Positions 10,454 to 34,238 of a stretch of 34,379 bases of DNA are shown one piece after another; the first letter of the stretch is position 1, and each line of letters begins with the position of its first letter. Under the pieces are notes generated by a model. The model worked only from the letters and a program-made list of their open reading frames with translations. It was not told where the DNA came from and did not search any database. The DNA is taken from positions 3,747 through 38,125 of the forward strand of contig JAHEZO010000007.1 in NCBI GenBank assembly GCA_023250995.1, read 5' to 3'. The DNA comes from Flavobacteriales bacterium (GTDB taxonomy: Bacteria > Bacteroidota > Bacteroidia > Flavobacteriales_H > JAHEZO01). The translations under genes were made by a program, and so were the position numbers.

Positions 10454-11236
10454 ATGAAAATTAAAAAAGTCATATTAATTTTTTGGCCTTTATTTTCATT
10501 TCTTCACAGTTATTGTTCTTCCAGTACAACAGTTAAAGATGGAAATTGGGCGGATCCTGGCGTTTGGAGCCCCGCACGGATTCCTGTATTTTCCGATTCA
10601 ATTATTATTTCACATAAAATTTTTTTTGAGGAAGATATTTCAATTTTACCCGGTGGTTTTTTAAAAATTGAACCGGAAGCCTCTCTTTGCGGTTTAAAAA
10701 CTATTAAAATTTCCTGCAACGCAGGTTTTGTTAACGATGGTAAACTAAGTGCTCAAAATATTATTTTGGATGGGAGTGGTGAAAATACGGGTGAGGTATA
10801 TGTTTCGGAATTCCTTCAGGTTAATTCCTGCGGCAATATGTTTTCTTTTGGGTCCATTACAGTTGGCCTTGAATATAATTGTAATGAAATAGGAAAAGAC
10901 ACCTCCCCGGATCTCCCCGAAATTCCAAATCTTATTCCTGATACATTACTTGTTTCCGATTCTTCTTCGGGAAATTTGAACTTAAAAGTTTTCCCCAATC
11001 CTTTTGTAAATGAATTTGAAGTTTCGGGCAGAATTCCCGAAAATGAATTTGTTACGGTTTCAGTTTACGATGCAATTGGAAAACTTGCAGCTGTTTTTTA
11101 CAATCAAAAACACCCCAAAGGAGATTTTCACAATTTTATTTCAACACGCAATATTGCATTGGGGAACGGAATTTATTATTTACGATTCACTTCCGGTGAA
11201 AACCTAATTCTTCGGAAGATTATCAAATCGGAATAA
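10454..11236 (+). CDS. T9SS type A sorting domain-containing protein with short beta-solenoid-like passenger
   Basis: A 260-aa exported protein. A signal peptide (MKIKKVILIFWPLFSFLHSY) precedes TTVKDGNWADPGVWSPARIP, the G8-like opening seen in many Bacteroidota surface proteins, then short strand repeats resembling a small beta-solenoid. From about residue 175 on there is a C-terminal sorting domain: LKVFPNPFVNEFEVSG, VSVYDAIGKLAAV, then LGNGIYYLRFTSGENLILRK. This has the layout of the T9SS type A signal, so the protein should cross the outer membrane and be attached to the surface or released. No enzymatic motif is visible. It has its own promoter and is convergent with the flippase gene. 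Confidence 0.82.
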   Translation: MKIKKVILIFWPLFSFLHSYCSSSTTVKDGNWADPGVWSPARIPVFSDSIIISHKIFFEEDISILPGGFLKIEPEASLCGLKTIKISCNAGFVNDGKLSAQNIILDGSGENTGEVYVSEFLQVNSCGNMFSFGSITVGLEYNCNEIGKDTSPDLPEIPNLIPDTLLVSDSSSGNLNLKVFPNPFVNEFEVSGRIPENEFVTVSVYDAIGKLAAVFYNQKHPKGDFHNFISTRNIALGNGIYYLRFTSGENLILRKIIKSE

Positions 11237-13840: not shown

Positions 13841-13872
13841 TTGTTGATAGTAATTTAATTTTTATATTTTTG
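13841..13872 (+). promoter_or_regulatory. Promoter of the giant surface-protein operon
   Basis: TATTTTTG at 13865-13872 matches TAnnTTTG, with TTG triplets at 13841-13843 and 13844-13846 at 18-21 bp spacing. An in-frame ATG at 13874 would be at or before the transcription start, so the ATG at 13906 is the better start for the first gene. The gap upstream (13648-13840) has no gene; around 13781-13815 it contains words (TTTGCGTC, CTGTGG) like those in the degenerate CACAGAG repeat. Confidence 0.6.
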
Positions 13873-13905: not shown

Positions 13906-16900
13906 ATGAATTTTTTATACTTTAAAGTGCGTTCGCTTTTTTCGGATTCAATATTTTTTTCAAAGGCAGGTTGGATTTTTGCCCTTTTTGGTTTTGGAAT
14001 TTTGAATTTGGATTTTGTCTTTTTTGCCTCAGCTCAGGAATGCGGATATATTTACGTTACCCCCAATGGTGCCACCAGCGGGTTAACAGGTACCAAAGCT
14101 AATCCTGCAAAATTTTCATTCGGTCTTTCTCTTGTAAGTACAACAAACAAAATAATCCGCATGGCTGCCGGCACCTATTCTTTCAGCAATGCCATTAACA
14201 TTCCTTCCAATGTAATTATTGAGGGTGGATTTAATTCGTCCACCTGGGTTAAAAGCAATGCTACCCCCACCATCATCTACCGCGACAGTTTAAATAACCT
14301 TTCAAACCCAAACCGCTTGGTTGGTCTTTCCTGCATAGGGGTTTCAGGTTTCCGCCTCCTCGACCTTACCATTAATATTGCAGATGCAATTGGCGATGGG
14401 GTTACTGTTTATGGAATTTACGTTAACAACTGCACTAATTATGTTATTTCACGCTGCAAAATAAATGCAGGGGATGGGTCGGATGGTAACCCCGGAACCC
14501 CAGGCATACCGGGAATGGATGGGGATACAGGAAAAGTAGGACAACCCGGAGTAGATATTGGCGACTGTTGCCGGAATGGTGGCCTGGGGGGCTGCTGTTC
14601 CTTTCCCGGAAGTTACTCGGGTGGTAAAGGAGGAACTGGCGCAGTCAGAGGTGGTTTTGTTGTTAATGTTTACACTGGCATCGGCTGCCCTTGGGATACT
14701 TGCTATTATAACAAACCCTTAAGCGATTATACCAATACCGGACTCCCGGGCCTTTTCGGTCAGGGTTATGGTGGAGTTCCGGGAGGCAATGGTGGCGCGG
14801 GCGTTTGTCAATCGCAGTATTATCAACAACAATGTTACTCTGATCCCGCTCAAAATGATGGTGATGTTGGAGATCCCGGAATTGATGGCAAAGATGGGAT
14901 AAACGGTTTGCAGGGCATTGATTCCTACTCCGGAGGATTTTATGTACCCGACAGCGGATCAGTAGGCACCGATGCTCTCCCGGGCGGTGGTGGTGGTGGT
15001 GGTGGTGGCGGTGGGGCTAAGGGATGCGAATCAGCGGTTTTAGATCCTGAAACAGGAGATACAATCAGCTATGTTTCGGGCTCTGGCGCAGGTGGCGGGG
15101 GTGGCGGTGAAGGCGGGCAGGGCGGATTTATTGGTGGCGGAGGCGCAGGGGCAGGTGGATCTTTTTCAATTTTTGTTTGGGCAAACGGAATCAACGGGGT
15201 GGTAAGAGACTGCTCTTTAAATCCCGGGCAGGGCGGTCAGGGAGGAAATGGGGGAGTTGGGGGAGCAGGGGGACAAGGAGGTGCAGGGGGAAAGGGAGGA
15301 AACCTTTACAATGATTCAACTGGAACTCATAGTTGTAACACCGGGGTTGGAGGAAAAGGCGGTGCCGGAGGTACCGGTGGTAAAGGGGGTGACGGTGGTA
15401 AAGGTTCAGATGGTGATAGCAAAGCACTGTACCAGCAACCTGGTCAGGAACCCATCCTTCTATCGAATATGTATAATCCCTTTGAACCCACAGTTACTGC
15501 CACTTTTTCGGGTTGCTCAAATTCGGATGTAACCTTCACTACCAATGCCACCGGAAACATTGACTGGGTATTTGGAGTGGGGGCCAATCCTTCTACCGCC
15601 TCCGGAGCCAATGTTTCGGTACAATACGACAGTGGAATTCCCGGGTTCAGGAGCATTACCCTTGTGGTTGATGGAGTGCCTTACCCTCTGGCTAATTTTA
15701 TTAATATCCCTACTGACTTTACGCCACCAAAAATTAAATCATCCAAGAATGTGGTTTGCGTTGGCGATGCGGTAAATATTTTTACCACCGAAACGGCCAC
15801 CACCTATAATTGGTCCATTCCCGGAGGGTCAATAACCACTTCATCCCTTCAAACCCCGGGGAACGTCACGTTTTCATCCCCCGGAATAAAAACAATTTCC
15901 TTAACTACTACGAGCTGTTGCGGAACCTCCGTAACCACAAAAGATATTGAGGTAATAACTTCTCCCACTATTGATATTGGTAATGATACTTCAATGTGCT
16001 TTACGGATGCTCTTCCATTGCTTGATGCCGGAAATCCGGGAGCCACCTACCAGTGGTTTTTTAATGGATCTCCTACCGGGGATACCTCTCATACGAAACA
16101 AACTGCCGAACCGGGTTTGTATTCCGTTATTGTTAGTTACGGGAGTTGCTTTAACAGCGATTCCATGTATCTTGATATCTACAATAAGTTGCCCATTGAT
16201 CTTGGAACGGATATACTTCTTTGCACTGGTGATACCCTTCCGGTATTAAATGCCGGCTTAACAGGAATGCAATCTTACCTCTGGACAATGAATTCAAATC
16301 CCGTGGGTATGAATTCACAAACTCTTCAAACCATTGGTGCCGGAACTTATATGGTTTCGGTTACCAGCCCTACCGGATGTATTGGAAAAGATACAATTAT
16401 TCTTACCATCAAAGATCCCGAAATTGAATTGGGAAATAATATCACCGTTTGTTCCAATGAACCATTGCCGGTTTTGGATGGCGGAAATTCCGGTTGTACT
16501 TACTCCTGGGCTTTAAATGGCTCGGCAGCCGGAACCTCAAAACTCCTTCAAACCACCGCAGCAGGTTTGTATTCAGTAACGGTTACGAGTCCTGCCGGAT
16601 GTTCAACTTCCGATAATCTTACTCTTAATGTGGTTCCGGCCCTTATTGCCGCTTTCACTGTTCCCGCCTCTGCCATGGTGGGTTCTTTTGTTTCTGTAAC
16701 CGATAATTCAAGTCCGCCTCCAACCTCATGGAATTGGAATTTTGGTGATGGTTCACTGAATGAAAGCCTTCAAAATCCAATTCATATTTATACAGAAGCA
16801 GGCCAATACGCCATTTTTTTAATTGTTAACAATGGTACCTGTTCTGATACAATTACTACTGTTATTAATGTTCAAAATGATTGTTCTGCTCTTGGTCTTA

Positions 16901-17433
16901 CTGCGGCCTTCACTCAATCAGACGATACCATTTACCTGAATGGTTTGGGAATGGTAACCCTGAATAATACTAGTTCAAATTCAAATTCATGGCTTTGGGA
17001 TTTTGGTGATGGCCAAACATCAACAGAACAAAACCCAACCCACGTTTATGCCGATGAGGGAACCTATACTATCACTCTTACTTCCTTCAATTACAATTGC
17101 TCAACCATGGTTTCAGGATTTGAAACCGTTATGTTGTATCCTTTAGGAATTTCCGAATCAGACAATACCTCTGGCCTGTGGAAGGTCAAAATTCTTCCCA
17201 ATCCAAGCAACGGAAAGTTTTTTGTTTCATTAAGCCATCCCCCCTCAGAAAAAAATACGATTTCAGTATTAAATGTTTTGGGAGAAACGGTGTATAAATC
17301 AATTATTCCAAATCCGGGAAATGAAATTGATTTATCCTCTCACCCTAAGGGCATTTATTTTTTTAAGGTTGTTTTAAACAAGGGTTTGGGAGAATTTGAA
17401 AGAGAAATTATTAAAAAAGTAGCAATAAATTAA
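13906..17433 (+). CDS. Giant beta-helix/Gly-rich/Ig-like/PKD surface protein with T9SS type A sorting domain (paralogue 1)
   Basis: 1175 aa from the ATG at 13906, chosen because the promoter overlaps the upstream in-frame ATG. Order: signal peptide ending ASAQ; a CGYIYVTPNGATSG opening and beta-helix-like region to about residue 188, with IEGGFNSSTW and IYRDSLNNL; a collagen-like Gly-X-Y run (NPGTPGIPGMDGDTG); about 300 residues of glycine-rich sequence including an 11-Gly run and GGxGGx repeats, interrupted by another helix-like rung (SFSIFVWANGINGVVRDCSL). Then come Ig-like units with LGxxxxxC and YxWxxNG patterns, at least three in tandem, two PKD domains (WNWNFGDGS, WLWDFGDGQ) and a type A sorting domain from about 1093 (ILPNPSNGKFFVS). 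Predicted to be a cell-surface structural or adhesive protein. No catalytic motif is seen. Confidence 0.85.
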   Translation: MNFLYFKVRSLFSDSIFFSKAGWIFALFGFGILNLDFVFFASAQECGYIYVTPNGATSGLTGTKANPAKFSFGLSLVSTTNKIIRMAAGTYSFSNAINIPSNVIIEGGFNSSTWVKSNATPTIIYRDSLNNLSNPNRLVGLSCIGVSGFRLLDLTINIADAIGDGVTVYGIYVNNCTNYVISRCKINAGDGSDGNPGTPGIPGMDGDTGKVGQPGVDIGDCCRNGGLGGCCSFPGSYSGGKGGTGAVRGGFVVNVYTGIGCPWDTCYYNKPLSDYTNTGLPGLFGQGYGGVPGGNGGAGVCQSQYYQQQCYSDPAQNDGDVGDPGIDGKDGINGLQGIDSYSGGFYVPDSGSVGTDALPGGGGGGGGGGGAKGCESAVLDPETGDTISYVSGSGAGGGGGGEGGQGGFIGGGGAGAGGSFSIFVWANGINGVVRDCSLNPGQGGQGGNGGVGGAGGQGGAGGKGGNLYNDSTGTHSCNTGVGGKGGAGGTGGKGGDGGKGSDGDSKALYQQPGQEPILLSNMYNPFEPTVTATFSGCSNSDVTFTTNATGNIDWVFGVGANPSTASGANVSVQYDSGIPGFRSITLVVDGVPYPLANFINIPTDFTPPKIKSSKNVVCVGDAVNIFTTETATTYNWSIPGGSITTSSLQTPGNVTFSSPGIKTISLTTTSCCGTSVTTKDIEVITSPTIDIGNDTSMCFTDALPLLDAGNPGATYQWFFNGSPTGDTSHTKQTAEPGLYSVIVSYGSCFNSDSMYLDIYNKLPIDLGTDILLCTGDTLPVLNAGLTGMQSYLWTMNSNPVGMNSQTLQTIGAGTYMVSVTSPTGCIGKDTIILTIKDPEIELGNNITVCSNEPLPVLDGGNSGCTYSWALNGSAAGTSKLLQTTAAGLYSVTVTSPAGCSTSDNLTLNVVPALIAAFTVPASAMVGSFVSVTDNSSPPPTSWNWNFGDGSLNESLQNPIHIYTEAGQYAIFLIVNNGTCSDTITTVINVQNDCSALGLTAAFTQSDDTIYLNGLGMVTLNNTSSNSNSWLWDFGDGQTSTEQNPTHVYADEGTYTITLTSFNYNCSTMVSGFETVMLYPLGISESDNTSGLWKVKILPNPSNGKFFVSLSHPPSEKNTISVLNVLGETVYKSIIPNPGNEIDLSSHPKGIYFFKVVLNKGLGEFEREIIKKVAIN
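14986..15006 (+). repeat. (GGT)7 trinucleotide repeat
   Basis: Seven uninterrupted GGT codons inside an 11-glycine tract of paralogue 1. Both sister genes have a poly-Gly tract at the equivalent place. Length changes by slippage would add or remove glycines without a frameshift. Confidence 0.85.
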
Positions 17434-17436
17434 TAA

Positions 17437-20400
17437 ATGAAAACAGTAAGGGCTTCCATCTATTTTCTATTTTCCTATTTCTTTCTTGGCCTTTTTCATT
17501 GGACAGGTGCAGGGAGTGAGGCTTTTAGTCAGCAATGCACCGTAATTTACGTTACCCCTAATGGAGCCTCTTCAGGAAATGCCGGAACAAGGTCTGCTCC
17601 TGCCTCTTTTACTTATGGTCTTTCTCTTGCCACTTCCTCAGATAATAAAATCTTCATGTCCTCGGGAACTTACAATGTTTCAAGCCCCGTTCAGATGAAG
17701 GGAAACCTGACTATTGAAGGTGGGTACAATTCAACCACCTGGAAAAAAAGCAATTCAACGGCAACAACCATTTACCGCGATAATTCAAATCTTGAAACCA
17801 ATCCCAGCCGGATTGTTGGGTTTTATTGCAGTAATATTTCAAATTTCAGGTTTCAGGATTTGACCATCCGCACCGCAAACGCTTCTGGGGGGGGTATTTC
17901 CACTTATGCAATGCACATCAGCGGATGCTCCAATTATCAGATTGTAAGATGTAAAATTCAAAGTGGAAATGCCGGAAACGGGACTGTTGGGACCAATGGA
18001 TCAAGCGGAATGGCAGGAAGTGCCGGGTCAGCAGGCGAGGACGGGTCAAATGATGACCTTGGACCGCGGCAGGGAGGAGCAGGGGCCTCAGGAACCTTTC
18101 CTGGAAGTAATGCCGGAGGCAAGGGGGGAGATGGTGGCGACAGAGGAACTGCCGAATGTGCTTTTTGCGGTGATCCCATTCACGCTACCAATGGATATCC
18201 CGGGCAAAACGGAATGGCAACTCCTCCCGGAGGAGGTGGCTACGGAGCTGCAGGAGGCCAAAAAATTGTAGTTTGTACTTATCCCACAACCCCTCCGCGG
18301 ACCACTTTAAATGATGGAGGAGTGGGAACAGATGGAGCTGATGGTATTGACGGTCTCATAGGTTCAATTGGGGCGGCTACTTTCTCCGGTGGATTTTTTA
18401 TTCCCGGGAATGGGGGCACCGGAACCAATGGAACAAACGGACATGGTGGCGGTGGTGGCGGTGGCGGTGGTTCACTGGGAGGAATTCCCTATGATTGCCT
18501 TTTTGGCCTTCCTCCAAACTGGAATGGCACCGGTGCCGGGGGTGGTGGGGGAGGAGAAGGAGGTCAATTTGCATCCGGAGGAACTGGAGGTTCGGGGGGA
18601 GGAAGTTCTTTTGCTTTGTACCTTTACAATAATGGGGCAGGAAGTGTTATTAAAGATACCAAACTAACCTCAGGGGTTTTCGGAATTGGGGGAGCAGGTG
18701 GAAATGGCGGTGCAGGAGGAAATGGCGGGGCCGGGGGATTGGGTGGTGGGAAATTCAATACCCATGTTGGAGCAGGCGGTGATGGTGGAAAAGGTGGAAA
18801 GGGCGGAACCGGTGGAGGTGGTGGTAGTGGCTCAGATGGAGTTTCCTATTCCCTTTACGAAGACGGCACAGGCACACCCGTTTCAATGCAAAACATTTAT
18901 TCTCTTCAACAGCCCTTTGTTTATGTACAAAATTCCGGCTGCACCAATTCTCCTGTTACCTTTTCTACAAATGCTTCTGGTACTGTGATTTGGTTTTTTG
19001 GGGCCGGGGCTTCTCCTGCCTCGGGCAGCGGGGTTACAGCTACCACAAAATATATCACCCAGGGAAGAAAAACTTTTACAATGGTTAACAATGGCATTTC
19101 TTATACGTTTACTGATTTTATTGAAATTTTTGGCACAGGAACAGGCATGACTCCCTCTATTTCTTCTGCCGATTCGAGCCTTTGCCTTTCCGACTCAGGA
19201 ACCTACTCCTGCTCTGCAGTGGCCGATGATTACATATGGAATGTGGTGAGGACCGGAACACTTGATACTACTCTTACGGGTCCCTCCTTGCAAAATCTTA
19301 CCTTTACTTTTGATTCGGCAGGTAGCTATATGGTGATTTTGAAAAGCGTGAATTATTGTTGCGGCCCTTCCTTCCCAGATACTTTTATTGTTAATGTGGG
19401 GGATTTGTATCCGCCTTCAATAACCATTCAGTCAGAGGATGCGGCCAATATTGTGTGTGATAGCGGCTCCTTCACCTTCAGTGCAACGGTTTCAACTGTA
19501 GGGATTAATCCCACTTACCAGTGGATGGTTAACGGAAATCCAGCGGGTGGCAATTACCCCATTTTTGTGGCTAACTTCCTCCAAAATGCCGATAGCGTAA
19601 ATTGCATTGTAACCTCTTCCCTTGGCTGCTCAACTGGACTAAAGGACACTTCAAATTACCTATCAGTTACCGTAGTTGCATTACCCGTTGTTACTTGTAC
19701 TTCCGATTCTTTTTTCTCAGGCGAGCCTACCAATTTCACTTCAAGTGTTACTACCGGAGGGAATTCACCTTTCACATACAATTGGAGTTTTGGAGATTCC
19801 TCTCTTGGTTTTGGCAACTCGGTTTCCCATATTTACCAGCTTGCCGGAACGTATAGTTATCAGGTAGATGTTACCGATTCAAATGGTTGTGCCGGAAGTT
19901 GCAATGGAACCCTTGTAATTGCAACAAAGCTCAGAGCTGATTTTACTGCTAACATTACCAGTGGCTGCGCTCCCTTGCAGGTAAATTTTACCAATAACAG
20001 CGTTTATGCCATAACCTATCTTTGGGATTTTGGAGATGGTACAACTTCGGTTCAAACCAATCCTTTTCATCTATATACCAATCCGGGATTATTTACAGTT
20101 ACCCTGATGGCTTTTGGGGCAAGCGGAACCGATAGTTCTTCGGTTTCTAACCAGGTTTATGTTTACCCCAAGCCGGTGGCAAACTTTCAGGCAATTATTG
20201 TTCAAACGGGCGATACCGTTTATTTTGCCGACAACTCAGTGGACGCATGGACGTGGTTCTGGAGCTTTGGCGATGGAGGTACTGATACAATTCAAAATCC
20301 TGTTCATGTTTATCCCTCTAACGGAACTTATGATGTGATGTTAATTGTAACCAACGGGTATGGCTGCTCAGATACAACCTTTAAGCCCTCCTTTGTAACA

Positions 20401-20688
20401 ATTGCAGTAGGGCAAAGTGAAATTCAGATTTCAGATTTCGGATTTCATGTTTTTCCAAACCCGTTCAACAATGAAATAAATATTGCCGTGGAGGGAAATC
20501 CGGAAGGTATTTTAAATATCTCCCTGAAAAATGTTTTAGGACAAACAGTTTTTTCACAAAATAAAAATATTGATTCGGGCATTATTGTTTTGCCAACGGG
20601 CAACTACCGGCTACAGGACAACGTCTATTTTCTCGAACTTGATTTTAACGGGAAAAAAAATTATTCAAAACTGATTTTTCAGGAATGA
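17437..20688 (+). CDS. Giant beta-helix/Gly-rich/PKD surface protein with T9SS type A sorting domain (paralogue 2)
   Basis: 1083 aa, starting 3 bp after the stop of paralogue 1. A signal peptide ending EAFSQ precedes QCTVIYVTPNGASSG, then the same region as in paralogue 1 (TIEGGYNSTTWKKSNST, TIYRDNSNL, RCKIQSGNAG). Gly-rich sequence spans about 177-468: a Gly-X-Y run around SSGMAGSAGSAGEDG, the shared FPGSNAGGKGGDGGDRGT, a second Gly-X-Y run, a poly-Gly tract and GGxGG repeats. The distal part has Ig-like regions and three PKD domains (YNWSFGDSS near 781, YLWDFGDGT, WFWSFGDGG near 941). The C-terminus (about 1005-1083: HVFPNPFNNEINIAVEGN, LKNVLGQTVFSQ) is a type A sorting domain. It overlaps the next small gene by 4 bp. 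Expected location is the cell surface. Confidence 0.85.
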   Translation: MKTVRASIYFLFSYFFLGLFHWTGAGSEAFSQQCTVIYVTPNGASSGNAGTRSAPASFTYGLSLATSSDNKIFMSSGTYNVSSPVQMKGNLTIEGGYNSTTWKKSNSTATTIYRDNSNLETNPSRIVGFYCSNISNFRFQDLTIRTANASGGGISTYAMHISGCSNYQIVRCKIQSGNAGNGTVGTNGSSGMAGSAGSAGEDGSNDDLGPRQGGAGASGTFPGSNAGGKGGDGGDRGTAECAFCGDPIHATNGYPGQNGMATPPGGGGYGAAGGQKIVVCTYPTTPPRTTLNDGGVGTDGADGIDGLIGSIGAATFSGGFFIPGNGGTGTNGTNGHGGGGGGGGGSLGGIPYDCLFGLPPNWNGTGAGGGGGGEGGQFASGGTGGSGGGSSFALYLYNNGAGSVIKDTKLTSGVFGIGGAGGNGGAGGNGGAGGLGGGKFNTHVGAGGDGGKGGKGGTGGGGGSGSDGVSYSLYEDGTGTPVSMQNIYSLQQPFVYVQNSGCTNSPVTFSTNASGTVIWFFGAGASPASGSGVTATTKYITQGRKTFTMVNNGISYTFTDFIEIFGTGTGMTPSISSADSSLCLSDSGTYSCSAVADDYIWNVVRTGTLDTTLTGPSLQNLTFTFDSAGSYMVILKSVNYCCGPSFPDTFIVNVGDLYPPSITIQSEDAANIVCDSGSFTFSATVSTVGINPTYQWMVNGNPAGGNYPIFVANFLQNADSVNCIVTSSLGCSTGLKDTSNYLSVTVVALPVVTCTSDSFFSGEPTNFTSSVTTGGNSPFTYNWSFGDSSLGFGNSVSHIYQLAGTYSYQVDVTDSNGCAGSCNGTLVIATKLRADFTANITSGCAPLQVNFTNNSVYAITYLWDFGDGTTSVQTNPFHLYTNPGLFTVTLMAFGASGTDSSSVSNQVYVYPKPVANFQAIIVQTGDTVYFADNSVDAWTWFWSFGDGGTDTIQNPVHVYPSNGTYDVMLIVTNGYGCSDTTFKPSFVTIAVGQSEIQISDFGFHVFPNPFNNEINIAVEGNPEGILNISLKNVLGQTVFSQNKNIDSGIIVLPTGNYRLQDNVYFLELDFNGKKNYSKLIFQE

Positions 20689-20894
20689 AAAAAAGTAAAA
20701 AAAGCTGGCAAGAAGAAATATTCATCAATAAATCCTTATCGGGAAAAGTGGTGGCTATTTGCGATGAAAAAATTGTTGAATCGGCTGATTCGTATTTTTT
20801 ACTGTTCAAAAAAATAAAAAACATCCCATCTTACCGTTTCTTTTTTGTGCCTGAAAATATTGACAAGTACCGAATACTCACATTAAAAAAATGA
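20685..20894 (+). CDS. Small DUF5678-like protein, translationally coupled on both sides
   Basis: A 69-aa cytoplasmic-looking protein without signal or membrane segment. It starts MKKSKKSWQEEIFINKSLSG, continues KVVAICDEKIVESADSY and then KKIKNIPSYRFFFVPENID. The GK-x-VA-x-x-D-x-x-(I/V)V-x-S-x-DS pattern, followed by a helix and a short strand ending VP, matches what I know of DUF5678, a small domain of unknown function in bacteria and archaea. Its ATG overlaps the TGA of paralogue 2 (ATGA, 20685-20688), and its TGA overlaps the ATG of paralogue 3 (ATGA, 20891-20894). It is therefore almost certainly a real gene, probably translated by re-initiating ribosomes. Role unknown; regulation or stoichiometry of the operon is only a guess. 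Confidence 0.72.
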   Translation: MKKSKKSWQEEIFINKSLSGKVVAICDEKIVESADSYFLLFKKIKNIPSYRFFFVPENIDKYRILTLKK

Positions 20895-23800
20895 ATTTTA
20901 TTTTAAAATATCCTGCAAAAAAGAATCCAGTTGGCATCCTTTATTCTATTCCAAAGGCTCGTTCTCCTTTAGTTATCAGAGCCGCCTTTTTTCTTTTTTC
21001 TTTTTTCTTTGGACTTGGAATTTGGGATTTGGGGTTTGGGACTTTTTCATTCGCCCAACAATGCAACATCATCTATGTTACCCCGACCGGAGCCTCCAGC
21101 GGTGCTGCCGGAACCAAAGCAGTTCCTGCATCTCTCCCCTATGCTTTCACCCTTGCCAGTGCAACAAATAACCAACTTTGGCTTGCAGTAGGAAATTATA
21201 CTATTTCTAATGAGCTGCCAATGATAAGCGGAATTACCATGGAAGGAGGTTTTGACCCTTCAAACAATTGGAAAAAAACGAATTCACTTCAAACAATTAT
21301 TTTCAGAGATGCCAACAATTTAGACCCTACGCCCAACCGGATTGTAGCAGTTGAATGTTCTGGAATAAGCAACTTCAGCATTCACGATCTTACCATTATT
21401 ACTTCTGATGCTGCCTCAGGTGTTGCCACCAGTACCTATGGGATTCATCTTTCAAATAACTCCTCCTATATTCTATCCCGCTTAACTATTACAGCAGGAA
21501 ATGCCACAGATGGGGTGGATGGAGTTCCGGGGGCCGATGGAATAAACGGAGCAAATGGTCAGTTAGGCCAGCCGGGGGATGAGGATGGGGGTTGTTGCAC
21601 AGGAGGGGGCGCAGGAGGTTCCGGTTCCTACCCAGGAAGTAATGCCGGGGGAAATGGGGGTGACGGAGGTGCCCGCGGAACAGGGAAATGTTTTGGAGGG
21701 AGCAATAGTGCACCGGATGGAGCGACAGGCCAACCTGGTTTGGGAATCTTAGGCACTGGAGGTGCCGGTGGTACAGGTGGACAAGGAAATTGTGGAATTG
21801 GAATTTCACTAGGTTGTGATCAAACTCCTGCCAGCGTAGGAGCGGATGGGGCTGATGGAGCCGATGGTGCTAATGGTGCTGATGGCGCAAATGGAATTCC
21901 GGTATTTGGAGCTTATTTTCTCCCTGGTGATGGAATGGATGGTATTCAGGGAGACCATGGTGGCGGGGGTGGCGGTGGTGGTGGTGGTGGTTCACAGGGT
22001 TGTTTAATTACCTGTTTTGGAAATAACAACGGTGCCGGTCCGGGTGGAAGCGGAGGAGGAGAAGGCGGAGAAGGCGGCCATGGGGCAACGGGGGGAAGCG
22101 GGGGCGGTGGTTCTTTCGGAATTTACATTGATGCCAATGGAAATGGAACATATCTTAAAGATTGCTTTTCCACCTCAGGTGTGCAGGGAATTGGAGGATT
22201 GGGGGGAACCCCCGGTGGAAATGGAGGCGGAAGCTCAGGAGGTGCTGCAGGAGTAATAGGTTGCGATATCGGAACAGGCGGGGCCGGAGGTGATGGGGGT
22301 AAAGGCGGTAAAGGGGGTAACGGTGGCAATGGTGCTGCGGGTGTTAGTTTGCCACTCTATGAAGATCCTGCAACTGTTTCTATTGCACAATCAGATATGA
22401 GAGCAACTGTTGAACCGGCCATTTATTTACAAAATACCGGTTGCACCTTTCACGACATAAATTACACCACAAACGCCACCGGAATTATACAATGGTTTTT
22501 TGACGGTGGCTCGGTTCCCCTGAGCGGTACGGGAGATTCTGTAAAAACTCAATATACCAGCCAGGGACGCCATTCTATAACTTTGGTTGTTGATGGGGTA
22601 CCTTATATGTTTACTGATTTTACAGGGATTTTTGCCGATGGAACACCCCTTTTGCCAACCATTACCGGACCCGACACTGTTTGTCCGGGAACCACAGGAA
22701 ATTTTTCCGCAACCTTCCCCACAGTTTTTCCGGTAACGGGGTATGACTGGAAAATTTATAATCCCGGTTCCATAAGTCCGGATCAGACCGGAAATTCGGC
22801 AAATTTTTCTTATTCTCTGTTTAACACCCTTGGTAGGTATTTAATTACTCTTCAAACACAGTCGCAGTGTTGCGGATGGTCAAAAATGGATTCATTTTAT
22901 GTTGATATTGTTCCGTATCTTACTGCCGATGTTTTTGTTTCGGCCTCTGCCGGGGCCGTTTGCAGCGGTGAAACCGCCACATTTTTCGCAGTGCCGGTAA
23001 ATGGCGGCAACAATCCCACCTTTTTGTGGAACGTGAATGGAGCAAGCACCGGGGTTACAACAAATTTCTTTTCCTCTTCTACTTTTAATGATGGGGATAA
23101 TATTACCTGCATCATGACAAGTTCTTATCCCTGTCCGTTAAATTCTCCGGTTACATCCATCCCGTTTTCAATTACTGTTTATCCTCTTCCAACTGCAACC
23201 TGCTCTACTGCGGGTGCTTTTTTGGGAGCAAACACCAGCTTTAGTGCCACACCCGGAAACGGAACATCTCCTTATGCCTATAATTGGGATTTTGGAGATG
23301 GTGGCGTTGATACGGCAGCCTCCCCTACCCATTTATATGGGGGAACCGGCACCTATTCTTATTCTGTTTCTGTAACAGATGCAAACGGTTGTACGGGGGT
23401 ATGCACCAACACGGTTGATATCATTATTGCCCCTTATGTTTATGCCGGTTTTACTTTCAGTTCAGTGATTGTGTGCGATAGTACCACAGTCCAGTTTACA
23501 GATACTTCAATTGGAGTTCCACCAGGGAATCCAACCAACACATGGCTCTGGGATTTTGGCGATCAGGGCACTTCAATTTTGCAAAACCCATCACATACTT
23601 TTACCGCCCCGGGAAATTATTCGGTTACTTTAACTGCAGGGAACGGAGTTTTCACAGATACATACATTGCTGCCAACATTGTTCCGGTTCTGATTGTTCC
23701 ATCAGCAAAAATCTCATATATTACAGATACTGTTTGCCTGCCTCTTGGGGCTCAGTTTTTTGATATTTCATCCGGGGCGGCCGGATGGCAATGGGATTTT

Positions 23801-24745
23801 GGCGATTTTACCTCAACATCCACTTTGCAAAATCCTGCACACACATATATTAATGCCGGAACATATACCGTTACATTAACAGTTACCTCAATTGATAATT
23901 GCACCGCCACGGCTACGGCAGGGATGGAGGTTCTTCCTGCCCCCACTGCCTCTTTTGTGCAAAATGACAGTTCCCTCTGCAGTGGAGAAAAAATTCTTTT
24001 TACCGATAGCTCTACCTCTGATGTAACCAAGTGGGGTTGGGATTTCGGAAACGGAAACATTGATTCGGTGGAGGCTCCCGGTGAACAAACTTACGATACA
24101 CCCGGATGGTATAATGTTTCTTTAAAAGTTCAAAACGCACTTGGATGCAAAGACGATACAATTATTTACAATGCGGTTGAAGTAAAACCTCAACCCCAGG
24201 CTTTGTTTACACCCGACACCACTGAAATTCTTTTTCCTGACAATGATATTGCCCTTACCAACCTAAGCTCTAATTATACTTCCTGGATCTGGGATTTTGG
24301 AAACGGGACCATTGATTCCACCAACTTTAACGCCACCGCTGTATATAAAGATTCGGGGGAATATATCATAACGCTTTACACTACCTATGAATACGACTGT
24401 AAAGATACCATGTCAATTAAAGTGATTGTGGTGGACATTGAGGCCATTTATTTTACAAATTCCTTTACCCCAAATGGTGACGGGTTAAACGATTTGTTTT
24501 ATGTTTATGGCAATAACATCTCTGAATTTAAAATGTACATTTTTAACCGGTGGGGCGATAATATTTTCGAAACAGATGATATGAGTAAAATGGCAGAAGG
24601 AAAATATGGAGGGTGGGATGGCAAGGTAAAAGGAGCAAAAGTTCCCGATGGAATTTACCCTTTCAGAGTTGATTATAAAATGAAATCAACCCGCAACAAA
24701 GTTTTCACCAAAATTGGTTCGGTAATGGTTTTGCAAAAAAAATAA
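20891..24745 (+). CDS. Giant beta-helix/Gly-rich/PKD surface protein with T9SS type B (gliding-motility-type) C-terminal domain (paralogue 3)
   Basis: 1284 aa, overlapping the small gene by 4 bp. The N-terminus is unusually long: about 29 residues, then a hydrophobic core AAFFLFSFFFGLGIWDLGFG and FSFAQQ. The shared region follows (CNIIYVTPTGASSG, TMEGGFDPSNNWKKTN), then Gly-rich sequence at about 202-485 with Gly-X-Y runs (VPGADGINGANGQLGQPG), poly-Gly, and a SFGIYIDANGNGTYLKDC rung. Then an Ig-like part and five PKD or PKD-like units (YNWDFGDGG, WLWDFGDQG, WQWDFGDFT, WGWDFGNGN, WIWDFGNGT). From about 1190 the tail reads SFTPNGDGLNDLFYV, IFNRWGDNIFET, GWDGKVKG and VPDGIYPF: the gliding-motility-associated/T9SS type B domain, unlike the type A ends of its sisters. 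Predicted surface protein. Confidence 0.87.
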   Translation: MNFILKYPAKKNPVGILYSIPKARSPLVIRAAFFLFSFFFGLGIWDLGFGTFSFAQQCNIIYVTPTGASSGAAGTKAVPASLPYAFTLASATNNQLWLAVGNYTISNELPMISGITMEGGFDPSNNWKKTNSLQTIIFRDANNLDPTPNRIVAVECSGISNFSIHDLTIITSDAASGVATSTYGIHLSNNSSYILSRLTITAGNATDGVDGVPGADGINGANGQLGQPGDEDGGCCTGGGAGGSGSYPGSNAGGNGGDGGARGTGKCFGGSNSAPDGATGQPGLGILGTGGAGGTGGQGNCGIGISLGCDQTPASVGADGADGADGANGADGANGIPVFGAYFLPGDGMDGIQGDHGGGGGGGGGGGSQGCLITCFGNNNGAGPGGSGGGEGGEGGHGATGGSGGGGSFGIYIDANGNGTYLKDCFSTSGVQGIGGLGGTPGGNGGGSSGGAAGVIGCDIGTGGAGGDGGKGGKGGNGGNGAAGVSLPLYEDPATVSIAQSDMRATVEPAIYLQNTGCTFHDINYTTNATGIIQWFFDGGSVPLSGTGDSVKTQYTSQGRHSITLVVDGVPYMFTDFTGIFADGTPLLPTITGPDTVCPGTTGNFSATFPTVFPVTGYDWKIYNPGSISPDQTGNSANFSYSLFNTLGRYLITLQTQSQCCGWSKMDSFYVDIVPYLTADVFVSASAGAVCSGETATFFAVPVNGGNNPTFLWNVNGASTGVTTNFFSSSTFNDGDNITCIMTSSYPCPLNSPVTSIPFSITVYPLPTATCSTAGAFLGANTSFSATPGNGTSPYAYNWDFGDGGVDTAASPTHLYGGTGTYSYSVSVTDANGCTGVCTNTVDIIIAPYVYAGFTFSSVIVCDSTTVQFTDTSIGVPPGNPTNTWLWDFGDQGTSILQNPSHTFTAPGNYSVTLTAGNGVFTDTYIAANIVPVLIVPSAKISYITDTVCLPLGAQFFDISSGAAGWQWDFGDFTSTSTLQNPAHTYINAGTYTVTLTVTSIDNCTATATAGMEVLPAPTASFVQNDSSLCSGEKILFTDSSTSDVTKWGWDFGNGNIDSVEAPGEQTYDTPGWYNVSLKVQNALGCKDDTIIYNAVEVKPQPQALFTPDTTEILFPDNDIALTNLSSNYTSWIWDFGNGTIDSTNFNATAVYKDSGEYIITLYTTYEYDCKDTMSIKVIVVDIEAIYFTNSFTPNGDGLNDLFYVYGNNISEFKMYIFNRWGDNIFETDDMSKMAEGKYGGWDGKVKGAKVPDGIYPFRVDYKMKSTRNKVFTKIGSVMVLQKK
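21014..21040 (+). repeat. TTGGAATTTGGG-type repeat within signal-peptide codons
   Basis: Tandem units of a CTTGGAATTTGG / GATTTGGGG-like word encode the LGIWDLGFG core of the paralogue 3 signal peptide. The 12-mer at 21014-21025 is identical to one in the non-coding stretch at 10303-10314. Confidence 0.5.
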
Positions 24746-24779: not shown

Positions 24780-26438
24780 TCATTTTATTATTTTCCCTGA
24801 GTATTTTTTTTGACCGGCAACAACTTCAATAAAGTAAATACCCTTGCTGATTTTATTTATGTCTACTTGCTTTTGGAAAGTTCCTTTTTCAGAAAGGTCC
24901 TCAGAAAAATAAACTCTTTGGCCCAAAACATCTGAAAGCGAAACACTAACCATCCCACCAAAATTTTTTTTCACCGAAATAAATAAATACTCATTTGCCG
25001 GATTTGGGTAAGTCTCAAGGGCAAAAATTTCAAAGTTTTTTTGTAATCCGGAGGGGTTCGTTTTGCCCACTTTTCCGATAAAAAAATCTTTACTGCCTTT
25101 ATTCAGAAGAGGTGTAATTCCAATAGTTGCATCACCGCTTGATGTACCAGTTACATAAATGATGTCTTTATCGGCAACAATGTTTTTTCCGGTAAGACTG
25201 CTGTCGCTCGTGCCCACTTTGATATTCCATGAGATTGTTTTTAATGAATCGTATTCAACAATAAACATTTCTTCTAACCCGGGATGAGAGTTTTGCAAAG
25301 TGTCTTTCCCCAAAGGAAGAGTTGGGGATGTAAAAAAGCCCGTAAGCAAGGTACTTTTGTCAGGCCCGGAAGTAATCCCCGTTACGCTTTCATCAAATGA
25401 CCCCCCATAGCCATACCCATAAGCCACTGTGCCGGAGGATGCATCCAACCCCTGAAAATGAATATCTTTGGCCTGAACGTTTACCAATACAATTACATCA
25501 GAGGTAATGGTTGGGCTGTCGAAGGATCCTCCAATTTCAATTGTTTGGGTTGAAAGCGAATTAATAATATTCCCAAGGTCATTGCCGCTGCCACCCTCAC
25601 CCTTTCCCCAAAGCGGGTTTCCGGAGGAATCAAATTTAGCAGTAACAATATCAGCACCCCCTGCATTGGTTAAATTGGAATTTCCAATTGGAAGGGTGAA
25701 GCTTTTATAATCTCCCGTTATGTAAACATTTTCACTCTGGTCTGTTGAAATATCCAAGGCTTCATCATCCTGGGTATCTCCAATTCCTTTAGCCCAAATA
25801 ACATTTCCCATTGGGTCCCATTTTGAAATAAAAATATCTTTCCCTCCCTGGTTGGTAAGAAAAAAATTTCCAAAAGGAATGGTAAAGCTTTTATAAAATC
25901 CTGTAACATAAAGATTGCCGCTTGGTCCAGCACAAATCGCTGTGGCAACATCATCATTGGTATCTCCGGCCACTTTCATCCATTTTACATTTCCAAGGGA
26001 ATCAAATTTTATTACAAAAGCATCTGCATGGGTGCTATCGGTACTTTTTAAAGAATCGCTTCCAATAATTAGAAATGGGCTTTTAAACCATCCCGCTATA
26101 TACACATTTCCATCAGGATCTGAGGAAATATCATTTACCACATCATTCCCGGATGAAATGGCGGTCCGGGCCCAAAGAATATTTCCTGAAGAATCTGATT
26201 TAATGATGAAAATATCTTTTCCTCCGGTGTTGGTCAGAGTTGCATTTCCTATAGAAAAAGTGGGACTGGTAAAATATCCGGCCACAAGGATGTTCCCATT
26301 GTTATCAAGGGCCATCCCGTTAGCTTCATCATCACCTGAACCTCCACCTGAATTTACCCAAATCCAATTTTCTGATTGTCCCTTTGAAAACAAATAAAGT
26401 CCGAAAGAAATCAAAACCAAAACAATTTTTTTGTTCAT
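24780..26438 (-). CDS. T9SS type A protein with seven-repeat beta-propeller passenger
   Basis: A 552-aa exported protein. A signal peptide (MNKKIVLVLISFGLYLFSKG) precedes seven repeats of about 55-65 residues. Each has the pattern (G/D)D(E/V)xxxIxxDxxGNxYxxGxF followed by GKDIFIxKxDSxGNxxWAK; examples are DDEANGMALDNNGNILVAGY, NDVVNDISSDPDGNVYIAGW and DDEALDISTDQSENVYITGD. This is the SBBP-like propeller family, and seven copies suit a seven-bladed ring. A type A sorting domain ends the protein (LETYPNPANEYLFISVKKNF, VSLSDVLGQRVYFS, KGIYFIEVV). Expected at the cell surface; no catalytic residues recognised. It faces the giant-protein operon tail to tail, 34 bp apart. Confidence 0.85.
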   Translation of the reverse strand: MNKKIVLVLISFGLYLFSKGQSENWIWVNSGGGSGDDEANGMALDNNGNILVAGYFTSPTFSIGNATLTNTGGKDIFIIKSDSSGNILWARTAISSGNDVVNDISSDPDGNVYIAGWFKSPFLIIGSDSLKSTDSTHADAFVIKFDSLGNVKWMKVAGDTNDDVATAICAGPSGNLYVTGFYKSFTIPFGNFFLTNQGGKDIFISKWDPMGNVIWAKGIGDTQDDEALDISTDQSENVYITGDYKSFTLPIGNSNLTNAGGADIVTAKFDSSGNPLWGKGEGGSGNDLGNIINSLSTQTIEIGGSFDSPTITSDVIVLVNVQAKDIHFQGLDASSGTVAYGYGYGGSFDESVTGITSGPDKSTLLTGFFTSPTLPLGKDTLQNSHPGLEEMFIVEYDSLKTISWNIKVGTSDSSLTGKNIVADKDIIYVTGTSSGDATIGITPLLNKGSKDFFIGKVGKTNPSGLQKNFEIFALETYPNPANEYLFISVKKNFGGMVSVSLSDVLGQRVYFSEDLSEKGTFQKQVDINKISKGIYFIEVVAGQKKYSGKIIK

Positions 26439-30449: not shown

Positions 30450-33400
30450 ATGCAATTTTTTTATCCGTCATTAAAAAAATGTCGAAATCAGAAGATTCGT
30501 TTCTCTAATCTCCTGATTTTCTTTTTCCCTATTCTTTTTGCCGTCCACTGTGGAAAGGTTTATTCCCAATCCGTGGGAATCTTTGGTTCCACCAACTTGG
30601 GAGTAAATAATACCGGGGCCAAAGGAAATACCTCCTCTGTTTTTGATATCAGTGCAAATGGAAAAGGGGTACTAATTCCCCGAATGACAGCAGCTCAGAT
30701 CTCTGCAATGAATCCCCTTCCCGAAGCAGCTCAGGGGTTATTGGTTTATCAAACAGATGCACCGGAGGGCTTTTATTATAACACCAGTATTACCACCATT
30801 CCAAACTGGGTTTTGCTTGCTGCAGGGGGAACCAACTGGCTCCTTACAGGAAATTCGGGAACCACGGATGGAACAAATTTTATAGGCACAACCGACAATG
30901 TTCCTTTTAATTTAAGAGTGAATAATGAAACAGCAGGGAGAATTGACCCGACCCTTTTTAATACTTTTTTTGGCCACCAGGCGGGTCAAACAATTTCCTC
31001 CGGTGGCCGAAATGTATTTATTGGAGAAAAAGCCGGTTTCAGCACCACCACCGGAGTCCGGAATAATTTTATCGGATACCGGGCAGGGTTCAGTTCCAGT
31101 GGAGGGTCGGCAAACTACAACCAGTTTTTTGGCTATGATGCAGGCTATACAAATACCTCTGGCTCCCAAAATCTCTTTATGGGTTACGCAGCAGGTTTTT
31201 TGAATTCTACTGGTGTAAATAATCATGCAGTGGGGTACCTTGCAGGAAGAAACAATAATGGCGACAATAATTTTTTTGAAGGGTATTATTCGGGATTCGA
31301 TAATACCAGCGGGAGCTCCAACACCTTTATTGGTTTTCAGGCAGGCCAAACGGATAATGCGGCAAATACAAATACCACCGGTTCCAACAATACCTTTATT
31401 GGGTACAATGCAGGGTCAGGTTCACCCACCCAGCATACAAATTCAGCAGCCATCGGGTACCATGCTAAAGTGGATGCCGATAATTCAATGGTGCTGGGAG
31501 GTACCGGAGGCTACGTAGTAAATGTGGGAATTGGAACAACCGTTCCCACTTCCAAATTACATCTTCATAATTCTGCTTCAACCGGACTTTCAATTTCAAC
31601 CAATACAAATCTGGGTACCGGAAATGATGTTGAATTAATTTTTAACAGTGATCTTGATGGCACTCCGAACCCAGCCACCATAGGTCAATATAATGATGGT
31701 TCTTTAAGATTTTCGGGTGCTTCAAATTTAGTTACCCCGGATATGGCAATAGATGATGCCGGGAATGTTGGAATTGGTACCGCTTCCCCTTCTGCAAAGC
31801 TAGAATTAAAAGGAAGCTTAAAAATTGTTGATGGCACCCAGGCAAACGGACGTGTTCTTACCTCTGATGCCGGAGGCCTTGCAACCTGGCAAACTCCTTC
31901 CTCCGGGGTGAGCGGAAGTGGTACCCAGAATTATGTTTCTAAATGGAACAATGCCCCAGGAACATCCCTTGGAAATTCTATTATTTACGATAACGGCACC
32001 AATGTGGGGATAGGAACTTCTTCCCCCGGACTCGTTGGCGGTTCGGCAAAATATTTAACCATTTCTTCAGGAAGCGGGTCCCCTGGAGCTGCTGATAATG
32101 TTTCGGTTGAACTAAATGGAGGAAGCAATTCTTCCAATGGAATACAAAATAAAGTTGATTTTGTTGCCCGGGCGACTGATGGGGCAAATTACAACACCGG
32201 AAGGATTGAAATGTCAAATACCTCCGGTTCCACCAATCAGGGAATAATGAGGTTTTACACAAGGGATGCTTCATCCTTAGCAGCAAGAATGACAATTTTG
32301 GAAAGTGGAAATACCGGAGTGGGGATTACCTCACCCGCTGCAAAATTTCATATTTCAGGAGGGTCAGGAATATTCAATTCAAAACTTTTACGGCTTGAGG
32401 GGGATTATTCTTCTCTTGGGCACTACCAGCAATTTGATTTTTCGCGTACTGCAGATGGAGCTGCAGTGGCCGGAATAAGAAATATTTTTGATGCTGCAGG
32501 GCAGTGGTCTCTCGATTTTTACGGAACTACAGGCGGAACCCCTTTTTCAACGGCAATTATGAGAATGCAAGGAGATGGAAATGTTGGAATTGGAACCTCT
32601 TCCCCCTCAGAAAAACTTGATGTTGCAGGGCGAATAAGGATTTCTGCTCTAAGTGCCCCGGGGATTTCGACCGACAAACTTTATAATGTTGGAGGCAACC
32701 TTTTTTGGAACGGAACTCAGTTAAATGCTTCTTCCCCTGCATGGACAATAACCGGAAATTCAGGAACCGTTGACGGAAACAATTTCATTGGAACAACCGA
32801 TGACGTTCCTGTAAATTTCAGAGTAAATAATGAGAAAGCAGGGAGAGTTGAGAATGATGATATTGATGGGATTAACGGTGGAAATACTTTTTTTGGTTAC
32901 AGATCTGGAAATTCAAATGTGGTAGACTTGGCAGGAATTCAGGGATTGTACAATACAAGCATTGGATTTAATTCCTTGTCCTCAAATGTAAACGGCCTAT
33001 ACAATTCCTCTGTTGGTAAGGCTTCTCTTTATTCAAATTTTAATGGAAATTTTAATTCGGCCATTGGGTATGAAGCCCTTTTTGCAAATGTATCGGGAAG
33101 CTATAATACAGCCCTTGGTTATGGTGCTGGCTATAATAATATAAATGGAGGCAATAATGTTTTTCTGGGAAATCAGGCAGGGTTTAATGAGACAGGTTCA
33201 AACAAACTTTATATTGCTAATAACAGTGCTGACCCACCTCTGATTTACGGTGATTTTTCTACCGGACAAATTGGACTGGGAACTTCTTCGCCATTGGCAA
33301 AATTCCAGATAACAAATGGGTCTTTCGTGGCCAACGGCAATACCGGCAATACCCCAATTTCTGGCGCAGGAACCAGAATGATGTGGGTGCCGGCAAAGGG

Positions 33401-34238
33401 GGCATTAAGGGCAGGTACAATTTCCGGGACTCAATGGAATGAAGGTAACATCGGTTTTTATTCTGCTGCATTCGGTTCAGATAACACGGCAAGCGGGGAT
33501 TATTCTCTTGCCTTTGGAAGAGGCCAGACAGCAAGCTCTTCTTATTCATTTTCCGGAGGGTATATTGGAAATGTTTCTGACGGACAGGCAACGTTTGTTT
33601 TTGCCGGAAATCCAATGCTAACCAATGGAAATGCAGGGGTGGTAATGTTTGGGGATTGGAATTCTAATTCATTTACGGCACCCGGAGGAATTCCAAACAA
33701 GATGTATTGCCGCTTTCAAAATGGCTATAACTTTTATACAAATAACAATAATACCGTTGGTGCAACATTGCCTGCAGGAGGTAACGCCTGGGCAGTTATT
33801 TCTGATTCAACAAAAAAAACAAATTTTATTTTTCCTGATGGAGAATCCTTTTTGCAATCCATAAGCAAAATGCACCTGGGCTCATGGAATTATAAAACCC
33901 AGGAGGCCGAAAAATACCGCCACTATGGCCCCATGGCCCAGGAATTTTTTTCTGCATTCGGCCATGATAAATTCGGAACCATTGGTTGCGATACTTTAAT
34001 TAACAGCAGTGATGCAACAGGAGTTGCTTTCATAGCAATTCAGGAACTCGAAAAAAGAACTGCAGATCAACAAAAAATTATTGAATCTCAATCTCTTCAG
34101 ATTCAAATATTAAATTCCGAAAATTTGCTTTTTAAAGCTGAATCAGGAAAATTGAAGGAAGAAAATCAAAAGATTAAGGCCGACATGGAATTGATAAAAC
34201 AACAACTCGGCATTGGAGTAAAAGCTGAAAAAAAATAA
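30450..34238 (+). CDS. Large surface/fibre protein with YadA-head-like repeats and C-terminal S74 chaperone (endosialidase-type) domain
   Basis: 1262 aa. A signal region ends near KVYSQ, followed by the GVLIPRMTAAQISAMNP and GLLVYQTDAPEGFYY opening common in Bacteroidota tail-fibre-like proteins. Residues about 170-350 hold tandem repeats of about 20 residues, such as NTFIGFQAGQT and QNLFMGYAAGF, like the beta-roll of trimeric YadA heads. A second shorter set is at about 810-930, and each set is introduced by the same TGNSGTxDGxNFIGTTD module. NVGIGTxSPxxKL motifs recur between. The C-terminus is an S74 intramolecular chaperone: ISDSTKKTNF with a Ser1118-Asp1119 pair where cleavage would occur, RHYGPMAQEF, GVAFIAIQELEKR, then a coiled coil. 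No T9SS sorting domain is seen, so its export route is unclear. Probably a trimeric fibre. Confidence 0.82.
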   Translation: MQFFYPSLKKCRNQKIRFSNLLIFFFPILFAVHCGKVYSQSVGIFGSTNLGVNNTGAKGNTSSVFDISANGKGVLIPRMTAAQISAMNPLPEAAQGLLVYQTDAPEGFYYNTSITTIPNWVLLAAGGTNWLLTGNSGTTDGTNFIGTTDNVPFNLRVNNETAGRIDPTLFNTFFGHQAGQTISSGGRNVFIGEKAGFSTTTGVRNNFIGYRAGFSSSGGSANYNQFFGYDAGYTNTSGSQNLFMGYAAGFLNSTGVNNHAVGYLAGRNNNGDNNFFEGYYSGFDNTSGSSNTFIGFQAGQTDNAANTNTTGSNNTFIGYNAGSGSPTQHTNSAAIGYHAKVDADNSMVLGGTGGYVVNVGIGTTVPTSKLHLHNSASTGLSISTNTNLGTGNDVELIFNSDLDGTPNPATIGQYNDGSLRFSGASNLVTPDMAIDDAGNVGIGTASPSAKLELKGSLKIVDGTQANGRVLTSDAGGLATWQTPSSGVSGSGTQNYVSKWNNAPGTSLGNSIIYDNGTNVGIGTSSPGLVGGSAKYLTISSGSGSPGAADNVSVELNGGSNSSNGIQNKVDFVARATDGANYNTGRIEMSNTSGSTNQGIMRFYTRDASSLAARMTILESGNTGVGITSPAAKFHISGGSGIFNSKLLRLEGDYSSLGHYQQFDFSRTADGAAVAGIRNIFDAAGQWSLDFYGTTGGTPFSTAIMRMQGDGNVGIGTSSPSEKLDVAGRIRISALSAPGISTDKLYNVGGNLFWNGTQLNASSPAWTITGNSGTVDGNNFIGTTDDVPVNFRVNNEKAGRVENDDIDGINGGNTFFGYRSGNSNVVDLAGIQGLYNTSIGFNSLSSNVNGLYNSSVGKASLYSNFNGNFNSAIGYEALFANVSGSYNTALGYGAGYNNINGGNNVFLGNQAGFNETGSNKLYIANNSADPPLIYGDFSTGQIGLGTSSPLAKFQITNGSFVANGNTGNTPISGAGTRMMWVPAKGALRAGTISGTQWNEGNIGFYSAAFGSDNTASGDYSLAFGRGQTASSSYSFSGGYIGNVSDGQATFVFAGNPMLTNGNAGVVMFGDWNSNSFTAPGGIPNKMYCRFQNGYNFYTNNNNTVGATLPAGGNAWAVISDSTKKTNFIFPDGESFLQSISKMHLGSWNYKTQEAEKYRHYGPMAQEFFSAFGHDKFGTIGCDTLINSSDATGVAFIAIQELEKRTADQQKIIESQSLQIQILNSENLLFKAESGKLKEENQKIKADMELIKQQLGIGVKAEKK

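Follow-up and report, generated by a model that had tools for sequence, protein, structure and literature searches.

Three neighbouring genes of a Flavobacteriales bacterium combine one head family with both classes of type IX sorting domain, an arrangement conserved among Bacteroidota

The window analysed here is a stretch of 34,379 nucleotides (G000:C289:3747-38125; contig JAHEZO010000007.1) from the draft genome of a Flavobacteriales bacterium (3.6 Mb in 341 contigs, 92% complete). It contains three consecutive giant genes, here termed P1, P2 and P3, whose products carry a common N-terminal head and end in a sorting domain of the type IX secretion system (T9SS), type A in P1 and P2 and type B in P3. 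The genes and their parts are listed below; head boundaries were taken from an alignment of relatives and group numbers from a tree of the heads.

13906..17433, + strand: P1, group I, 1175 aa, ATG at 13906, type A tail
14035..15957, + strand: P1 head (beta-helix, glycine-rich region, immunoglobulin (Ig)/PKD-like part)
17194..17385, + strand: P1 type A sorting domain (TIGR04183/PF18962), 41.2 bits, E 1.2e-10
17437..20688, + strand: P2, group II, 1083 aa, type A tail
17530..19401, + strand: P2 head, modelled with a mean predicted local distance difference test (pLDDT) score of 94
17965..18840, + strand: P2 glycine-rich region within the head, 39% Gly, Gly at each third residue, runs separated by beta-helix strands
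19684..20358, + strand: P2 PKD stalk, PKD_4 E 1e-42
20449..20679, + strand: P2 type A sorting domain, TIGR04183 25.9 bits for the whole protein, 32.6 bits for the last 130 aa
20891..24745, + strand: P3, group III, 1284 aa, type B tail
21056..22912, + strand: P3 head
23216..24430, + strand: P3 PKD stalk, PKD_4 E 4e-62, five WxFGD/N signatures
24452..24706, + strand: P3 type B sorting domain (TIGR04131/CHU_C PF13585), 47.7 bits, E 1.3e-12; 53.2 bits for the last 130 aa

Frames and spacing agreed with an earlier sequence-only reading of this DNA, which had reported gaps of 3, -4 and -4 bp around a small gene. P1 and P2 are separated by 3 bp, and a 69-codon open reading frame (ORF; 20685-20894) overlaps P2 and P3 by 4 bp each through ATGA. 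The same reading had proposed three paralogues with a common N-terminal passenger, and their similarity was indeed far above chance, with P2 matching P3 at 636 bits (43% identity across P2 residues 5-980 of 1083) and P1 at 441 bits (40% identity). Since the alignment to P3 stops at residue 980 and that to P1 at residue 981, homology ends about where the tail begins. All three proteins contain PKD domains (PF18911/PF00801; PKD_4 E 8e-29 in P1, 1e-42 in P2 and 4e-62 in P3), with two, three and five WxFGD/N signatures, respectively, and the length of the PKD/Ig stalk is typical of each group.

The shared head (~625 residues) comprises a beta-helix with a glycine-rich region built on a three-residue repeat, followed by the Ig/PKD-like part. 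The first ~660 residues, glycine-rich middle included, stay in register across 112 aligned relatives. Glycine recurred in the glycine-rich region with a period of three (lag-3 z 7.1, lag-6 z 4.6), and 89 head columns were at least 90% glycine among 65 proteins, the majority of them inside this region. AlphaFold2 models of the P2 head reached the same mean pLDDT of 94 with and without the Ig-like part, and placed beta-helix strands at residues 5-144, 284-291, 360-380 and 439-444, the long glycine runs between them lacking regular secondary structure. By analogy with gp38 of phage S16, whose beta-helix turns send out extensions that make up a polyglycine sandwich (PDB 6F45; PMC6851490), the glycine-rich region may fold as packed polyglycine-II-like strands. 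Both proteins have glycine-rich extensions off beta-helix turns, here with glycine at every third residue; however, the region here spans about 290 residues against 73 in gp38 and 6F45 was not among the fold matches listed, so the likeness is an analogy only.

The head family is not named by Pfam, and we found no description of it in the open literature searched, nor anything there on polyglycine in T9SS proteins or on glycine-rich PKD T9SS proteins. Pfam searches returned nothing named in 63/65 heads and no family for the beta-helix/glycine part of P2. A pectate-lyase-like family matched weakly in 2/65 heads, and with no Pfam family found for the P2 head, assignment to the pectate-lyase-like enzymes is not supported. 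No PDB chain matched the head by sequence. In a PDB fold search with the model of the beta-helix and glycine region, the nearest structures were pectate-lyase-like and weak (E 4e-4 and weaker), the best being the right-handed beta-helices of rhamnogalacturonan lyase (5olr), Pel9A (1ru4) and the adhesin PfbA (4mr0); template modelling (TM) scores were about 0.2, and an enzyme function for the head is not implied. Searching with the whole head was uninformative on the head proper, as Ig-like domains dominated the matches (including repeats of the Aureispira GhpA protein).

The tail classes were as the earlier reading had claimed when the C-termini were scored with curated profiles (cut-offs: TIGR04183, 23 bits; TIGR04131, 35 bits; PF18962 and PF13585, 27 bits each). 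P1 and P2, both of which have a signal-peptide-like N-terminus, exceeded the TIGR04183 cut-off for type A; with the Pfam type A model PF18962, P1 scored 42.8 bits and P2 26.9 bits, the latter narrowly below threshold. P3 exceeded both type B cut-offs (PF13585, 53.3 bits). Tails of relatives were classed with profiles seeded from the window and then verified with the curated models: TIGR04183 matched 40/41 proteins of groups I and II, and TIGR04131 matched 26/26 of group III and 32/34 of group IV.

These groups come from head trees of 112 and 87 rows, built without the glycine part from metagenome-assembled Bacteroidota (depositor labels Bacteroidia, Flavobacteriales, Chitinophagales and Sphingobacteriales). 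The heads fell into four groups, about 39% identical to one another and with near-fixed tails: group I (P1) and group II (P2) type A, group III (P3) and the usually unlinked group IV type B. Support was strong for groups I, III and IV and weaker for group II (93/54). Tail class changed four times on the 112-row tree and three times on the 87-row tree. Uniting both type A groups cost only 2.2 log units (approximately unbiased test, p-AU 0.448), so the data allow for a single deep change of tail class. The exchange between type A and type B tails is thus old, and the assignment has been stable since. The 'tail swapping' of the sequence-only reading, which suggests shuffling, has to be amended, given near-fixed classes within orthologous groups and one deep change that was not rejected.

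Two family members probably record single switches. One is a type A protein inside type B group IV (L146, 3041-6337). The other (L084, 9920-13159) is of type B, sits on a long branch close to group II and is followed after 7 nt by a PorP gene.

We further examined the occurrence and order of the genes among the relatives. Of 247 class members sampled evenly, 53 had the head, and groups II and III were neighbours in about twenty of these, representing about ten family codes (coordinates counted by eye). Group III directly followed group II in 20 loci, window included and close kin (L032, L034, L035, L037) among them. The II-III gap was -4 in seven loci (L023, L032, L034, L035, L037, L070, L127), 1-30 bp in others (L038, L043, L045, L049, L079, L124, L128) and 144-324 bp in the window, L011-L014 and L016. 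Group I lay upstream of group II in the window, L011-L014, L016, L017, L031 and L043. The trio with the same tails in the same order was found in separate assemblies (L011, L012, L013, L014/L015), which refutes an assembly error joining separate loci; the order was also seen in L016, L017 and L043, where some genes were cut at contig ends or interrupted by a masked stretch.

Among the genomes read gene by gene, groups I, II and III occurred together in eleven, the window's included. Group I was on another contig or distant in seven genomes (G004, G010, G014, G042, G050, G054, G057), so the set is retained without linkage; contig ends hide whether it is linked in G024. G046 had groups I and II, the latter truncated by a contig end, and G016 and G059 had only group IV among the loci read. 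Genes flanking the trio were not conserved among relatives, and the unit itself is therefore what is kept. With order and tails conserved over about ten family codes, the arrangement is more than one genome's oddity, and its recurrence in many Bacteroidota makes the combination look selected rather than accidental.

Other features of the II-III region and of the head family were also recorded. In two loci (L017, 6031-6590; L031, 13211-13771) a conserved ORF of ~180 aa lies between group II and the next head gene; its N-terminus resembles a signal peptide, and it is not related to the 69-aa ORF of the window. Short palindromes are present in the II-III gap of L011 (13163-13306) and L012 (13163-13443), the latter with a GACTCCGCTCGAA / TTCGAGCGGAGTC repeat noted by eye, which suggests small insertions that widened the gap. 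The window's genome encodes a fourth head paralogue of group IV (G000:C212:1-1833; L139/L164), directly downstream of a PorP/SprF-family gene, and a divergent fifth (G000:C251:22-963; L138), both truncated by contig ends.

The earlier proposal that the three proteins are made from one message was also strengthened. Bacteroidota promoters follow the consensus TTG - spacer - TAnnTTTG, and one match precedes P1; this site and the small ORF are located as follows.

13841/13844..13872, + strand: candidate Bacteroidota-type promoter (TTG - spacer - TAnnTTTG), pattern match upstream of the P1 ATG at 13906
20685..20894, + strand: 69-aa ORF between P2 and P3, ATGA overlaps on both sides, codon score between random sequence and genes

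No second such site occurred on this strand between 13600 and 24800, the remaining TAnnTTTG cores being intragenic, and neither junction had a terminator-like site. Promoter match and spacing indicate that P1-P3 are probably carried on one transcript starting before P1. Across relatives, the core preceded 1/20 group III genes that follow group II, 9/16 group I genes and 15/34 group IV genes, against a background of 14%.

The small gene did not hold up as part of the set. It had no counterpart at the II-III junction of any relative, no homologue in the other fetched loci and none convincing elsewhere in the genome; the 144-324-bp gaps of L011-L014 and L016 hold no related ORF. A conserved chaperone or linker was rejected on these grounds. 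A reverse frame has a higher codon score, and the ORF is best treated as lineage-specific or spurious.

The genome contains the T9SS families that both tail classes would need. It encodes PorV-family proteins, a PorU split into two pieces (contigs C252 and C321), 15 genes of the PorP/SprF family that pass the cut-off and 43 TIGR04131 matches, 42 of them over cut-off. Four contigs with PorP/SprF genes (C93, C110, C186 and C252) have no type B match listed. With 43 type B tails against 15 shuttles, type B proteins that lack a linked shuttle gene are common in this genome. P3 is one: there is no linked PorP/SprF gene (a usual, not obligatory, companion) in the window, and in the loci of relatives group III genes have no PorP-like ORF as a partner, the one nearby in L045 belonging to a group IV gene. 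In group IV, seven genes have a PorP-like ORF just downstream and one more just upstream. We considered whether P3 shares the shuttle of a protein with a near-identical tail, but every other type B tail of its own genome is at most 43% identical and no partner can be named.

On the shared head, the tail classes with their old and stable assignment, the conserved order and the co-occurrence of groups I-III, we read the trio as a conserved, probably co-expressed three-member set of T9SS surface proteins, most likely adhesins, that descend from a common ancestor and would use two anchoring routes (probability roughly 0.6). A single message from the promoter before P1 would yield all three proteins. 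P1 and P2 would exit the translocon with a common PorV shuttle, lose their C-terminal domain (CTD) to PorU and be attached statically or released. P3 would retain its CTD and stay bound to a PorP/SprF-type shuttle encoded elsewhere. The same head would thus be displayed on the surface in two ways from one message. The different T9SS branches for sister proteins are suggested by the PorV, PorU and PorP families in the genome together with published work on both classes. In Flavobacterium johnsoniae, exchanging tails between type A and type B redirects a passenger to static anchoring, release or the gliding machinery, and orphan type B proteins share a single unlinked shuttle (PMC12618676); PorP-like barrels are the binding partners of type B proteins, and PG1035 carries no anionic lipopolysaccharide (A-LPS) modification (PMC9143113). 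Adhesion is a putative activity, suggested by the architecture.

Several observations weigh against this reading or its parts. The II-III gap is wider in the window's own lineage (144-324 bp) than elsewhere. The promoter core precedes just 1/18 group II genes for which no upstream partner was detected, which makes the motif an unreliable guide, although for some of these genes a truncated or interrupted group I gene lies immediately upstream. Polyglycine-II packing is absent from the PDB fold matches listed.

The trio might instead be a hetero-assembly, in which subunits delivered by both branches come together on the cell surface by way of their similar heads to form a fibre, layer or tuft, the mixed tails being an assembly rule; this develops the multi-part surface structure of the sequence-only reading. 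Retention of groups I, II and III as a set even when unlinked, II-III adjacency across many lineages and group-specific stalk lengths are in its favour. However, independent adhesin genes are often clustered too, and group I can lie far from II-III. A beta-helix/glycine-rich head carried on a PKD stalk resembles a separately anchored adhesin at least as much as part of a layer or fibre, and we consider a joint structure unlikely. If it were true, a three-part apparatus would need both T9SS branches, with two subunits attached through PorV/PorU and the third on a PorP/SprF barrel, and sorting class would act as an assembly code.

The genes could also be tandem duplicates kept by inertia in a substrate-rich genome, each tail working alone and the A/B combination having no special meaning. 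The 43 type B matches and the many other PKD proteins with either tail fit this view, as does the frequent neighbourhood of type A and type B proteins in such genomes. However, order and tail class are conserved where flanking genes are not, and heads only about 39% identical between groups make the duplicates old, a depth that inertia explains poorly; we regard this explanation, too, as improbable. Recent tail swapping by recombination between paralogues, of which L146 and L084 would be isolated later examples, is very improbable and largely refuted for P1-P3, given so few class changes on either tree, the single deep change that was not rejected and orthologues in other species that bear the same tails.

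The trio is made of parts of known kinds. P1 and P2 share their sorting domain with type A substrates such as RemA of F. johnsoniae, but differ in a head that is neither lectin nor enzyme. P3 resembles type B substrates such as SprB in its sorting domain, and the orphans Fjoh_1123, Fjoh_1720 and Fjoh_4934 in having no adjoining PorP/SprF gene (PMC12618676), but differs in sitting in a gene set with type A sisters that bear the same head. A further parallel is the engineered CTD swaps of SprB, RemA and AmyB (PMC12618676), in which one passenger likewise bears a tail of either class; those are laboratory-made, whereas the trio's combination is natural, old and conserved. In the open literature searched, we found neither a description of a fixed A/A/B combination on one head family nor of an operon with both sorting-domain names.

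Further surface proteins are encoded in the window. Two, near the trio, are additional type A T9SS proteins (24780-26438, - strand; 10454-11236, + strand), one of which has SBBP-type beta-propeller repeats and is convergent with P3. A 1262-aa protein (30450-34238, + strand) joins YadA-head repeats to a Peptidase_S74 (endosialidase chaperone) domain at its C-terminus, so that a surface protein of a Bacteroidota member combines phage-tail-like and trimeric-adhesin-like features.

Across about ten family codes, evolution has preserved a matched group of adjacent genes in which almost the same head is joined to either tail. The purpose of the two sorting classes, and the way in which an orphan type B protein reaches its shuttle, can thus be tested on a natural system.

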